In this document: positions 42,492 to 56,339 of the stretch, piece by piece
Layout of the letters: each line of letters begins with the position of its first letter
Position numbering within the stretch: the first letter of the stretch is position 1
Assembly (NCBI RefSeq): GCF_009193325.2
Contig: NZ_CP059856.1
Coordinates: forward strand, 4,960,001-5,024,000
Length of the DNA stretch: 64,000 bases
From: Bacteroides zhangwenhongii
Lineage (GTDB): Bacteria > Bacteroidota > Bacteroidia > Bacteroidales > Bacteroidaceae
Reading direction: 5' to 3'
Program-made: the position numbers and the translations under genes
The notes under the pieces: model-generated
The model's database searches: none
Told to the model about the DNA's origin: nothing
The model's input: the letters and a program-made list of their open reading frames with translations, nothing else

Positions 42492-43795
42492 TGTCCCATT
42501 AAAATTGGGACAAATTAAAAATTAAATAAACTTGGCCCATTTGGTCCGAATCGTTCTTTGTCATTTTGAAATTTAGTTTTATCAAAGAGGTCTCTCAGAT
42601 GAGTTTTATCAGTCAATGAGATGCTCAATATTTGTAGCACTTCGTATGTACTTCTATCCAGTTGCATATCGTGTTGAATGATTGCCACCAAACAGTAAGT
42701 GCATATTGCAGCATATATCTGTATTCGAACAGCATTCTCTGTAGTCCCCCAAAATCTTTTGATTTTAAGGTGCTGCTTTAGCCACTTGAAAAACAGCTCT
42801 ACCTGCCAACGATTTTTATAAAGTTCAGCAACTTGAAGTGCAGATATATGCATGGCATTGGTTATGAATGTAAATTCTCGTTCTTGTTCTTCATCCCAAT
42901 ATTTAACCAATCTAAGTGGCTCCGGATAATATTGTTTAGGATAGAATCCAGTTAGAAGTATGCTCGCGTCTGAAAACACATTCTTAGGCAGCCTACGTTT
43001 CCATTTGATGGATTTGTACCCGAGGTTCTTTTTTGCTCTGACAACGAAGTAGGCTTCAATCTGATGAATCTTATACAGCATCTTGAAGTTGTTATAACCG
43101 CGGTCAAAGATGTAATAAGAGCCTGGTTCATAAGGAATCTCATTCATTACTTTAGAATCGTGTACGGATGCTTCCGTGATATGAAAGAATGCAGGTATCT
43201 GTGTTTCTATATCATATAATGTATGCACTTTGATACCACCTTTCTTCTTGCGGAATTTAGCCCACCAAAAGACTGAAAGGCACAGGTCAATAGTTGTCGA
43301 ATCGAAAGCATAAACGTTGCCACCAAGTTTGAAAATATGAGTAACACGCTTTTCTCGTGCTTCGCTAACTAGGTAGTAAGCGTATTCTTCAAAGATATGA
43401 TAGTCCCTATCTTGATTTGCTCGTGCCAGCGATGACTTTGATACGTTTTTACCCATTCCTAAATGATAACATTTGGAATGATGGGCTTCAAGCGCAACTA
43501 TTAAATCTCGCAGACTTTCACGATTAGAAAGTTGACCGAACATCAAAGCAAGTAGTTGATTCCAGCAGGTGAAATGCTTCACATATTTGTCGCCATCATA
43601 CTTGGCAACAATGCGGTTAAACTTACTTCGATTCAGAAACGAAGCCAACTGAGCAAAAACGTATTTGTCTTGGAACATGTGCTATCAGATTAATCTGATA
43701 CAAAGCTACGAATTCAAGTCCGTTCGCTCGAAAAACCTCTGTAACTAACTAAATTTCAAATATTTCAAAGAACTATTTTAGATTTTAATGGGACA
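42492..43795 (-). mobile_element. IS4-family insertion sequence, complete
   Basis: Perfect 14-bp terminal inverted repeats (TGTCCCATTAAAAT at 42492-42505 and its complement at 43782-43795) bound a 1304-bp element holding one transposase gene. Inside the left end a 7-bp hairpin can block read-through. No matching target duplication is flush with these ends. It separates the DUF3829 and cupin genes, which were probably divergent neighbours. Confidence 0.9.
42515..43678 (-). CDS. IS4-family transposase
   Basis: The 387-residue DDE enzyme has a DUF4372-type N-terminus (FAQLASFLNRSKFNRIV), first Asp in YAFDSTTIDL, second in YYIFDRGYNNF and the IS4 signature Y-(2)-R-(3)-E-(6)-K in YKNRWQVELFFKWLKQHLK. 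Intact frame and intact ends suggest recent or still active transposition. Confidence 0.93.
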   Translation of the reverse strand: MFQDKYVFAQLASFLNRSKFNRIVAKYDGDKYVKHFTCWNQLLALMFGQLSNRESLRDLIVALEAHHSKCYHLGMGKNVSKSSLARANQDRDYHIFEEYAYYLVSEAREKRVTHIFKLGGNVYAFDSTTIDLCLSVFWWAKFRKKKGGIKVHTLYDIETQIPAFFHITEASVHDSKVMNEIPYEPGSYYIFDRGYNNFKMLYKIHQIEAYFVVRAKKNLGYKSIKWKRRLPKNVFSDASILLTGFYPKQYYPEPLRLVKYWDEEQEREFTFITNAMHISALQVAELYKNRWQVELFFKWLKQHLKIKRFWGTTENAVRIQIYAAICTYCLVAIIQHDMQLDRSTYEVLQILSISLTDKTHLRDLFDKTKFQNDKERFGPNGPSLFNF

Positions 43796-44148: not shown

Positions 44149-44167
44149 ACAATCATAGTGTATAAAA

Positions 44168-44239
44168 ACAAAAAATGGCTACTCATCACGAGCAACCAAT
44201 CTTTTGTTAACCTTAAATCTAATACTTATGAAAAAAACA
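44168..44239 (-). ncRNA. Candidate small RNA, repeat copy 1
   Basis: A perfect promoter on the minus strand (below) is followed by about 40 nt of leader and a terminator hairpin (44177-44184 and 44190-44197, 5-nt loop) with a U-rich tail. The leader contains TTAGATTTAAGGTTAACA, shared exactly with copy 2 at 45430-45496. The stems of the two copies differ but keep pairing, including a T.G to C-G change, so the hairpin is under selection. In the other direction it can end transcription from the cupin gene. Confidence 0.7.
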
Positions 44240-44244
44240 CTGTA

Positions 44245-44275
44245 CAAAGGTACCATATTTCAGGTAAATAGCAAA
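44245..44275 (-). promoter_or_regulatory. Promoter of small-RNA copy 1
   Basis: On the minus strand: TTTG (44272-44275), 19-bp spacer, TACCTTTG (44245-44252). Confidence 0.75.
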
Positions 44276-44459
44276 TTCTAGAGCCTAAACAGCCCATATT
44301 ATAACAGGGTTTAATACTCTGGGAAGCGTATTAACATTTCAGACTTCACACGTTAACATTTAACATATTCATTCACACAAGTTACTTCTTGGGTAAGTAA
44401 GAATACAAAAAAGAGGGAATCATTGAAACAACATCGTCTTTTTTTTGTAACTTTGAACT

Positions 44460-45398
44460 ATGATAATCAGTGCCAGCCGCCGGACAGATATTCCGGCATT
44501 CTATTCCCAGTGGTTTTTCAACCGGATTAAAGAAGGATATGTATTAGTGCCCAATCCATATCATCCGAAAATGATTAGCAAGATCTCTCTATCTCCTGCT
44601 GTAGTAGATTGCTTTGTTTTCTGGACCAAGAACCCGGCACCTATGCTCAACCAACTGGAGAAATTGCAGGATTACAACTATTACTTCCAATTTACACTTA
44701 ACCCCTACGGAGAAAAGCTGGAAAATCATTTGCCCTCCATCGATAAACGAATGGATACCTTTAAAAAGCTGGCTGATAAAATCGGCAGGGAAAGGGTGAT
44801 CTGGAGATATGATCCGATACTGACGAACGAGGAATATAATGTTTCTTTCCACCAGGAAGCATTTGCCCGGATTGCCGACGGGCTCAAAGACCACACTGCC
44901 AAATGTATGCTGGGATTCATAGATCATTACCAGCATATCCGGAACTCTGTACGGTCATTCAACATCCATCCGCTAACTCAAGAGGAAATAGAAGAAATGG
45001 CTGTCTCCTTTAAAAAAACAATCGACGTTTATCCCGACATACAGCTGGATACTTGTACTGTAAAAGTGGATTTAAGACATTTAGGTATTCCGAGTGGCCT
45101 GTGTATTGATAAGGATCTGATAGAAAAGATCATCGGTTATCCTATCCTCGCCCAAAAGGATAAAAACCAGCGTAACATCTGCAACTGCATTGAAAGCATT
45201 GATATCGGAACTTATGAAAGTTGCCTGAACGGATGTATTTATTGTTATGCCATCAAAGGCAATTATAACACGGCAGTATATAATAGGAGGAAACATGATA
45301 AAAACTCACCGCTACTCATCGGCCATTTATCCGAAGATGATATCGTAAAGGAACGGGAGATGAAAAGCCTGCGGGATAACCAATATTCGTTGTTTTAA
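44460..45398 (+). CDS. DUF1848 family protein with cysteine cluster
   Basis: The 312-residue protein begins MIISASRRTDIPAFYSQWF, the family hallmark, and has VFWTKNPAPML and RYDPILTNEEYN in the middle. Near the C-terminus a cysteine group (CNCIESIDIG, then CLNGCIYCYA) resembles a radical-SAM/iron-sulfur binding site but placed at the end. The family may be divergent SPL-like radical enzymes; function is unproven. It is a single gene framed by two copies of the small-RNA repeat. Confidence 0.85.
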   Translation: MIISASRRTDIPAFYSQWFFNRIKEGYVLVPNPYHPKMISKISLSPAVVDCFVFWTKNPAPMLNQLEKLQDYNYYFQFTLNPYGEKLENHLPSIDKRMDTFKKLADKIGRERVIWRYDPILTNEEYNVSFHQEAFARIADGLKDHTAKCMLGFIDHYQHIRNSVRSFNIHPLTQEEIEEMAVSFKKTIDVYPDIQLDTCTVKVDLRHLGIPSGLCIDKDLIEKIIGYPILAQKDKNQRNICNCIESIDIGTYESCLNGCIYCYAIKGNYNTAVYNRRKHDKNSPLLIGHLSEDDIVKEREMKSLRDNQYSLF

Positions 45399-45429
45399 TC
45401 TCTTCGGTCTACAGTTGACTTACAGGCAT

Positions 45430-45496
45430 AAAAAAAGGCTATCTATCCCAGACAGCCAATCTTTTGTTAACCTTAAATCTAATACTATGAAAAACA
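45430..45496 (-). ncRNA. Candidate small RNA, repeat copy 2
   Basis: Same structure as copy 1: perfect promoter, leader with TTAGATTTAAGGTTAACA and CATAGTATTAG, then hairpin (45437-45444 and 45450-45457, 5-nt loop) and seven U. The RNA would be about 67 nt. A tiny reading frame on the plus strand (from ATG at 45486) is probably chance. Confidence 0.7.
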
Positions 45497-45501
45497 CAGT
45501 A

Positions 45502-45532
45502 CAAAGATACGGACTTTTCGGTTATCTCCAAA
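45502..45532 (-). promoter_or_regulatory. Promoter of small-RNA copy 2
   Basis: On the minus strand: TTTG (45529-45532), 19-bp spacer, TATCTTTG (45502-45509). Confidence 0.75.
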
Positions 45533-45771
45533 TTTTGAGGCCAAAGCAGCGTATCTTATAACATGGTTTAATAGAATCAGAGCCGTATTAACAAATGAGT
45601 GGCCAGGCATTAACATTTAACAGTTTTCTTAAATAATCAGAGCGTAAAACTGGAAAAGATGCAAAAGTTTTCGAATCGAACACCTTATCTTATTAAAGAG
45701 AGTTTATGAGGGCTAACAAATTCCTCTGCCAGCTGTTTCTAAATAGAAGATAACCATCAAATTCCCATTAT

Positions 45772-51861: not shown

Positions 51862-51869
51862 TATCTTTG
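51862..51869 (+). promoter_or_regulatory. -7 box before the cobalamin riboswitch
   Basis: TATCTTTG lies just upstream of the aptamer. No good -33 TTTG; transcription would begin near 51876. Confidence 0.55.
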
Positions 51870-51879
51870 CCCCCCGAAA

Positions 51880-52056
51880 TGGTTCAGAATCCGTATCCAA
51901 CGGACGACGATTAATAGGGAATCGGGTGTAAGTCCCGGACAGTCCCGCTGCTGTGAAGCTCTGTTCAATGTCTTATAATTGAACTAATTTAACGCCACTG
52001 ATGTTAATCGGGAAGGCAAATAAGACAAGAGTCAGTCAGAAGACCTGCCATTTTGT
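51880..52056 (+). promoter_or_regulatory. Cobalamin (adenosylcobalamin-type) riboswitch
   Basis: The core AATCGGGTGTAAGTCCCGG, CAGTCCCGCTGCTGTGA and the B12 box AGTCAGAAGACCTGCC (52034-52049) are present in order and spacing. After the aptamer a hairpin with GCTC..CTCCT and AGGAG..GAGC arms (about 52063-52094) is the likely expression platform; it lacks a T run, which points to translational or non-classical control. The first gene after it starts at 52199. Confidence 0.93.
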
Positions 52057-52198
52057 GTAAGACGCTCCCCTCCTCGTGGGTTAGGAGAAAGAGCATCACT
52101 TGTTAAGCCCCAAATCAAAAAAATACTGTTTTTCGTCGGGTGGAGTATGTCCATTAGATAGGAAGACATTAATAAGTATGTACTTAATTGAAAAAAGT

Positions 52199-55903: not shown

Positions 55904-56102
55904 CCAAAAAACGGCACCTCGATTCACATCGCAGCACCGTCACAACACAAACACAAAATAAAACACGACAAAACTACTATGCAATCTTCCTGTTATGCCG
56001 GGGAGGCATATCTTGCTTGACTTATCTATATTCGCATACCCATAAGAAGCTTTATCAGGCGATTTGCATTATTATAACAAACAGTTATATGTTTTGTTCA
56101 TG
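55904..56102. repeat. Tandem-duplicated intergenic unit, left copy
   Basis: A unit of about 199 bp recurs with a 237-bp period (second copy 56141-56339) and only a few differences. At its left end a hairpin (55912-55918 with 55933-55939) borders six A, a terminator for minus-strand transcripts. No protein frame is shared convincingly. Confidence 0.85.
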
Positions 56103-56140: not shown

Positions 56141-56339
56141 CTAAAAAACGGTACTCCGATTCACATCGCAGCACCGTCACAACACAAACACAAAATAAAA
56201 CACGACAAAACTACTATGCAATCTTCCTGTTATGCCGGGGAGGCATATCTTGCTTGACTTATCTATATTCGCATACCCATAAGAAGCTTTATCAGGTGAT
56301 TTGCATTATTAAAACAAGCAGTTATATGTTTTGTTCATA
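56141..56339. repeat. Tandem-duplicated intergenic unit, right copy
   Basis: The right copy carries the same terminator hairpin (56149-56155 with 56170-56176, tail 56143-56148) and the internal TATGCCggggaGGCATA hairpin. The minus strand has a -7-like TAGTTTTG within it. It sits directly after the amidase stop and may be its 3' UTR or a small-RNA gene. Confidence 0.85.

Follow-up and report, generated by a model that had tools for sequence, protein, structure and literature searches.

A tandem pair of FopS small RNA genes in Bacteroides zhangwenhongii, and putative Cur boxes at promoters of the family

The window, i.e. the whole 64,000-nucleotide stretch of Bacteroides zhangwenhongii DNA that was analysed, carries two similar small-RNA units on its minus strand (Table 1), the extents of which were set by the Rfam covariance model RF04319 (BTncRNA_FopS). 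At both sites the order TTTG, 19 nt, TAnnTTTG, shared leader, hairpin and U run can be read directly, as the first-pass annotation had described it, and both copies have a canonical sigma-ABfr promoter, TTTG-N19-TAnnTTTG. The 5' leader is nearly invariant between them (TATTAGATTTAAGGTTAACAAAAGATTGG is common to both), and copy 2 has insertions in this leader (UUUUUUUCAUAAGUAUU) that fall inside the seed. The stem-loops, GGCTGTCTG-GGA-TAGATAGCC and GGTTGCTCG-TGA-TGAGTAGCC, contain the same hairpin that had been noted earlier as an 8-bp stem with a 5-nt loop, which is this one minus its innermost G.U pair. They differ by one one-sided change (C-G to T.G) and three two-sided changes. Pairing is kept in all four, and a fully paired stem (G.U allowed) is present in each of 111 FopS copies from 11 Bacteroides genomes, using a search that takes the best fully paired stem and hence leans towards pairing, which bears out the earlier idea of covarying terminator stems. 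There are 22 distinct stem-loops among these 111 copies; counted from the base, each of pairs 3 to 7 occurs as 3 to 5 different pair types.

Table 1. Features of the two small-RNA units and the gene between them (positions in the window)
Feature	Position	Strand	Description	Basis
FopS sRNA copy 1	45427..45497	-	about 71 nt; 5' seed and terminator hairpin	RF04319, 82.3 bits (gathering score 56)
-7 box, copy 1	45502..45509	-	TATCTTTG	sequence
-33 box, copy 1	45529..45532	-	TTTG, 19 nt from -7 box	sequence
Upstream element, copy 1	45556..45571	-	TTAAACCATGTTATAA at -74; class A, left half of Cur box only	exact match to TTAAWCNRTGTTATRA; position fixed across copies
FopS sRNA copy 2	44167..44240	-	about 74 nt	RF04319, 63.5 bits (gathering score 56)
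-7 box, copy 2	44245..44252	-	TACCTTTG	sequence
-33 box, copy 2	44272..44275	-	TTTG, 19 nt from -7 box	sequence
Upstream element, copy 2	44299..44314	-	TTAAACCCTGTTATAA at -74; class A	one mismatch to TTAAWCNRTGTTATRA
DUF1848 protein gene	44460..45398	+	between the two copies, outside the sRNA unit	PF08902, 349.6 bits

The two copies are also alike upstream of their promoters. Their identity is 67% over -120..-1 and falls to 38% over -160..-121, so that the figure of about 120 bp given previously for this homology is right; the maximum in 2000 random placements of 120 nt was 40%. The intrinsic hairpin and U run in each unit are what one would cite for regarding both as nothing but terminators or attenuators of neighbouring genes. 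However, each unit is served by a promoter of its own (spacing 19 nt), conservation extends well past the hairpin into the leader, and the neighbouring cupin and DUF1848 genes lie on the opposite strand, which makes this reading highly improbable. The same promoter and leader argue that the units are, as had been proposed, probably transcribed RNAs and not merely terminators.

The Rfam search that the first-pass annotation had suggested as a check matches both units to RF04319 above its gathering score (both >56 bits), copy 2 having the lowest score among the 12 over-cut-off copies of the genome. The GibS (RF04182) and BTnc231 (RF04180) models match both window copies as well, at E <0.01, the 5' part being common. 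Membership in either of these families, and not in FopS, would nevertheless have to be squared with scores of 48.0 and 41.5 bits against a GibS gathering score of 115, with 28.1 and 28.6 bits against a BTnc231 gathering score of 80.4, and with the presence in the genome of a separate GibS-like locus (L014, labelled GibS from its own sequence only) that has 48.3 bits to the FopS model; we regard it as improbable in the extreme. Both sites are almost certainly FopS genes, belonging to a paralogous trans-acting sRNA family. This identity settles what the window units are.

A copy 2-type FopS gene stands beside another FopS copy, 0.24 to 3.0 kb away, in five further stretches (G021, G012, G044, G030 and G014), all of which have a short-chain dehydrogenase gene. 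The DUF1848 gene is present in G021 and G012, as in the window, and was not found in the pair-bearing stretches of G044, G030 and G014; since the pair is kept there, it is independent of DUF1848, which was thus ruled out as part of the sRNA unit. In a sixth stretch, G017, the pair is weaker and the three neighbouring genes are all absent. Elsewhere in the window there are a transposase gene with DDE_Tnp_1 and DUF4372 domains at 42515-43678 (-), about 0.5 kb from FopS copy 2, two neighbouring Bacteroides-1 RNA copies (RF01694) at 55985-56069 and 56222-56306 (-), and a cobalamin riboswitch (RF00174, 92.2 bits) at 51863-52066 (+).

That the units belong to a multi-copy Bacteroides RNA family, as the first-pass annotation had it, stands: the window genome has 14 matches to the Rfam model, 12 over the cut-off and 2 below, and an over-cut-off match was found in 60 of 60 sampled genomes of the genus, its own included. 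B. thetaiotaomicron has 14 copies (RF04319 BTncRNA_FopS). Conservation of FopS was described within the Bacteroidaceae (PMC11697453), and its 19-base core is also found in Dysgonomonas, Barnesiella, Parabacteroides, Prevotella, Muribaculaceae and other Bacteroidales. There are at least 128 core copies in at least 119 Bacteroidales stretches; among those listed, a loose test finds a promoter at 122 of 128, and in 113 of 128 the seed is followed by a fully paired stem. The notion that these 19-mer matches are target mRNAs was dropped on the same counts. A peptide coded opposite the seed (ATGAAAAACAC...) found no support, the frames being mostly short (at most 93 aa among the matches listed) and unlike between copies. 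Matches to FopS on plasmids are probably pieces of chromosome, the one plasmid record examined having ordinary chromosomal genes.

Several copies deserve mention in their own right. One locus of the window genome (L011, G000:C1:3749222-3749291) and its relatives L293-L298 form a FopS class with a longer leader U tract (GTGATTTTTTTCATAG), without a Cur box, and in most cases with an upstream block of their own (like AACAGTGAAAATCAGTGAAAGAATT). Dysgonomonas sp. 521 has four FopS cores within 1.8 kb (L059, 3342-5135), and a Cur-type palindrome stands at the -33 position in all three whose upstream region is readable. Two further cores lie in a contig (L041) of an assembly titled 'Clostridium sp.', probably through an error of naming or binning.

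The role of the family had been given as unknown by the first-pass annotation, and here the published record says otherwise. FopS was described in 2025 as an RNA whose 5' end represses translation of SusC-like transporters, with RbpB as antagonist (PMC11697453). The B. thetaiotaomicron FopS RNAs are reported there to be RbpB-bound, induced by bile salts and to pair near the start codon; their transcription, RbpB binding and repression of the susC gene BT_3983 were shown, RNA-seq and northern evidence was published, and an unknown transcriptional regulator acting under bile salts was invoked (PMC11697453). By analogy, we infer that the window copies would act in the same way. Each FopS gene would be transcribed from its own sigma-ABfr-type promoter, with the hairpin ending transcription; the single-stranded 5' end (GUGUUUUUCAUAGUAUUAGAUUUAAGGUUAA in copy 1) would pair with translation initiation regions like ...UAAUACUAUGAAAA..., mostly of SusC-like genes, thereby blocking ribosome entry, and RbpB would counteract this block. 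A 20-base seed complement has 16 matches with at most 3 mismatches in the window genome, 12 of which lie in RNA genes (11 FopS and 1 GibS-like). The other four fall at the start codon of a SusD-like gene, at that of a SusC-like gene, at the start of a 37-aa frame and at a site without a start codon. A reversed control also gives four, placing their number at chance level, and it is only the identity of two of them (SusD-like and SusC-like) that agrees with the published targets. The copy 2 seed complement is absent from the 16 genome matches to this pattern (20 bases, at most 3 mismatches) which, together with the leader insertions inside its seed, suggests that its pairing may differ.

The element at -74 bears on how these genes may be controlled. 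The 16-base pattern TTAAWCNRTGTTATRA, with at most one mismatch, has nine matches in the window genome, each of which precedes a FopS gene by exactly 74 nt, against one match for the reversed pattern. Since it was drawn from that genome's own copies, the test is provided by ten other Bacteroides genomes, in which there are 121 matches; 32 of the 34 exact and 32 of the 87 one-mismatch matches lie 74-75 nt from a FopS gene. The remaining 57 compare with 65 matches for the reversed control, i.e. outside FopS promoters the pattern occurs at chance level. The element is present in 62 of the 99 over-cut-off FopS copies of these ten genomes. In many copies its right part completes a palindrome matching the core of the Cur/BT4338 consensus, wwwTATGTTnTAnAACATAwww (PMC3878776, PMC6989115). 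TTAA and GTTAA blocks stand further upstream, outside this palindrome, and a reading of the TTAA blocks as an OmpR-type direct repeat was set aside once the palindrome had matched the Cur consensus.

Among the 111 copies of the 11 Bacteroides genomes, the 16-base Cur core was found within 150 nt upstream in 31 at one mismatch or fewer and in 49 at two or fewer, always starting at -68/-69 (38 copies) or at -36/-35 (11 copies); the other 62 have no box at two mismatches or fewer. At the same two thresholds, upstream regions in which single bases had been shuffled gave 0.02 and 0.5 copies, and the reversed pattern 0 and 5. The TATGTTnTAnAACATA box is a feature of the family's promoters, in 49 of 111 copies and at two fixed positions, and is not complete in the window copies, which have 5 and 7 mismatches at the -68 position and its left half only. 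In the Bacteroidales set, which includes Bacteroides, has one contig equal in length to a contig of G039, partly overlaps the 11-genome set and is not wholly independent of it, the core was found in 42 of 124 usable copies among the matches listed (shuffled 0.6, reversed 0; four copies were left out as short or containing N), and 35 of 43 core matches, again among those listed, are at the same two positions. Genome-wide counts at two mismatches or fewer equal those of the control (64 against 62 per strand, and 13 against 13 for a related pattern), so what carries the argument is the constant placement at FopS and not abundance.

The exact core occurs at three places in the window genome, two of which are FopS promoters. 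The third (L185, G000:C1:1107123-1107138), the only one not at a FopS gene, is upstream of a 379-aa lipoprotein-like gene that looks epimerase-like by eye. As candidates for a Cur orthologue the same genome encodes three Crp-type regulators over the PF13545 cut-off, as judged by domain match, and one of them (L234) has a degenerate palindrome with 3 mismatches just upstream. The strong prediction that these promoter sequences allow is that Cur, the master regulator of carbohydrate use, controls transcription of many FopS genes via putative boxes centred at about -60 or -28. The Cur-site match at many FopS promoters looks new: the main text of the FopS paper does not mention Cur or BT4338, nor did we find the upstream element described there (PMC11697453), and none of the papers found on BT4338/Cur together with sRNAs deals with FopS, judging by title or the start of the abstract. 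The sRNAs induced under carbon limitation near BT4338 sites include BTnc140, BTnc195 and BTnc364 (PMC10294740).

According to thresholds that are this analysis's own, the 111 copies can be sorted into promoter classes. Class P comprises 11 copies, exactly one in each of the 11 genomes, in which the box lies over the -33 position, and that of the window genome has no TTTG there. Class B (38 copies) has its box centred at about -60, class A (25 copies, both window copies among them) has TTAAACC and the left half of the box, and 37 copies were classed as 'other', of which 10 show 3 mismatches where class B has its box. Classes A and B probably grade into each other, since a neighbour of the conserved pair in G030 (L217) combines TTAAACC with a class B box.

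Of the two possible signs of a Cur effect on FopS, we lean towards repression. If Cur represses FopS, glucose would silence Cur, raising FopS and lowering SusC translation, while carbon limitation would activate Cur and turn PULs on and FopS off. The boxes at the 49 Bacteroides and 42 Bacteroidales copies counted above (sets that overlap in part) are consistent with this, as is the class P box, since a protein bound there, over the -33 position, would be expected to stand in the way of polymerase. Repression would also fit published observations that FopS levels on high-mannose N-glycan are about 3-fold below those on glucose and are anticorrelated with those of GibS (PMC11697453), that GibS is highest on mucin and in starvation, conditions under which the Cur regulon undergoes strong changes (PMC10994844), and that Cur is silenced by glucose and fructose (PMC10294740), and 140 of 175 genes with Cur binding and changed expression are repressed (PMC6989115). 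However, class B boxes (about -60) are placed like the activating site at fusA2 (about -66 in two genomes, with the -7 box as read here), the window copies are without a full box and 62 of the 111 copies without any at two mismatches or fewer, and bile induction of FopS is outside its reach. We therefore hold repression tentatively, at slightly less than an even chance. The opposite sign, whereby Cur would activate FopS as an incoherent feed-forward brake on PULs under carbon limitation, could draw on the placement of the class B box upstream of a -33 box, as at fusA2, and on MasB as a precedent of a Cur-activated sRNA (PMC10994844), but published FopS levels drop on complex glycan relative to glucose (PMC11697453), and we consider activation rather unlikely.

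Sequences like the FopS seed are also found in phages; a phage copy of FopS has already been reported, and spread by phages suggested (PMC11697453). Four pattern scans of viral contigs yielded 55 stretches. Some have the usual promoter and resemble copies from a host or prophage, and L163, L164, L169, L175 and L184 have the 19-mer only, without the rest of the seed or the hairpin. In 21 stretches (L143, L145, L149, L150, L153, L159, L166-L168, L170, L172, L174, L177, L183, L314-L317, L319, L320 and L325) there is no promoter by the loose test and the seed follows the end of a frame of at least 60 aa by no more than 150 nt, a hairpin being found by a scripted test in 13 of them. They represent about 11 upstream contexts, counted by eye, and identical or related phages are represented more than once (L150, L168 and L183 resemble one another, and phrog_1221 is common to L316 and L319). 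We did not find this position of the seed behind phage genes described in the text of the FopS paper (PMC11697453).

An endolysin gene lies 0.8-3.5 kb upstream of the seed in L145, L150, L153, L165 and L315. The order endolysin, Rz-like spanin (a weak match, E 0.0007), seed, terminase is seen only in L165, which the loose promoter test flags and in which the seed also comes shortly behind phage genes; a terminase gene is near the seed in L166 too. In L314 the seed follows a tRNA-like sequence, as read by eye. Among 12 loci that encode a relative of the L172 protein (the query included), the seed is intact in 4, has an apparent one-base deletion (by eye) in 3, is degraded in 4 and absent from 1; it is not fixed within this phage family and its conservation is incomplete. 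In one phage record (H1) the FopS match lies about 1 kb from the record end, with no annotated gene beyond it, and may be host DNA.

Taken together, we think it somewhat more probable than the contrary that catabolite control in Bacteroides has FopS as its translational arm. Cur would act on FopS promoters via boxes in two fixed places, an arrangement found across Bacteroidales; most likely, preferred sugars would raise FopS and shut off SusC translation, and carbon limitation would lift this. Paralogues of different promoter classes, with the box over -33, with it at about -60, with half a box and with none, would respond differently, and phages would have acquired the seed and placed it behind genes of their own, in several cases near lysis genes, as an RNA 3' end that possibly silences SusC-like proteins in infection. 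If the copies with a box (classes P and B) are under the control of Cur, this regulator and the FopS/RbpB layer would form one carbohydrate-control circuit, and the FopS paralogues would not be merely redundant copies.

Compared with known systems, the window units share with published FopS (RF04319) the covariance-model match, seed, terminator, sigma-ABfr-type promoter and multi-copy nature, and no family-defining feature sets them apart. BTnc231 (RF04180) has a similar 5' end, and GibS (RF04182) has the 5' seed R1 in common with them, whereas FopS is without seed R2 and the GibS promoter is of another type (PMC11697453). MasB (BTnc201) is another RNA, and it provides a precedent for the control of an sRNA by Cur (PMC10994844).
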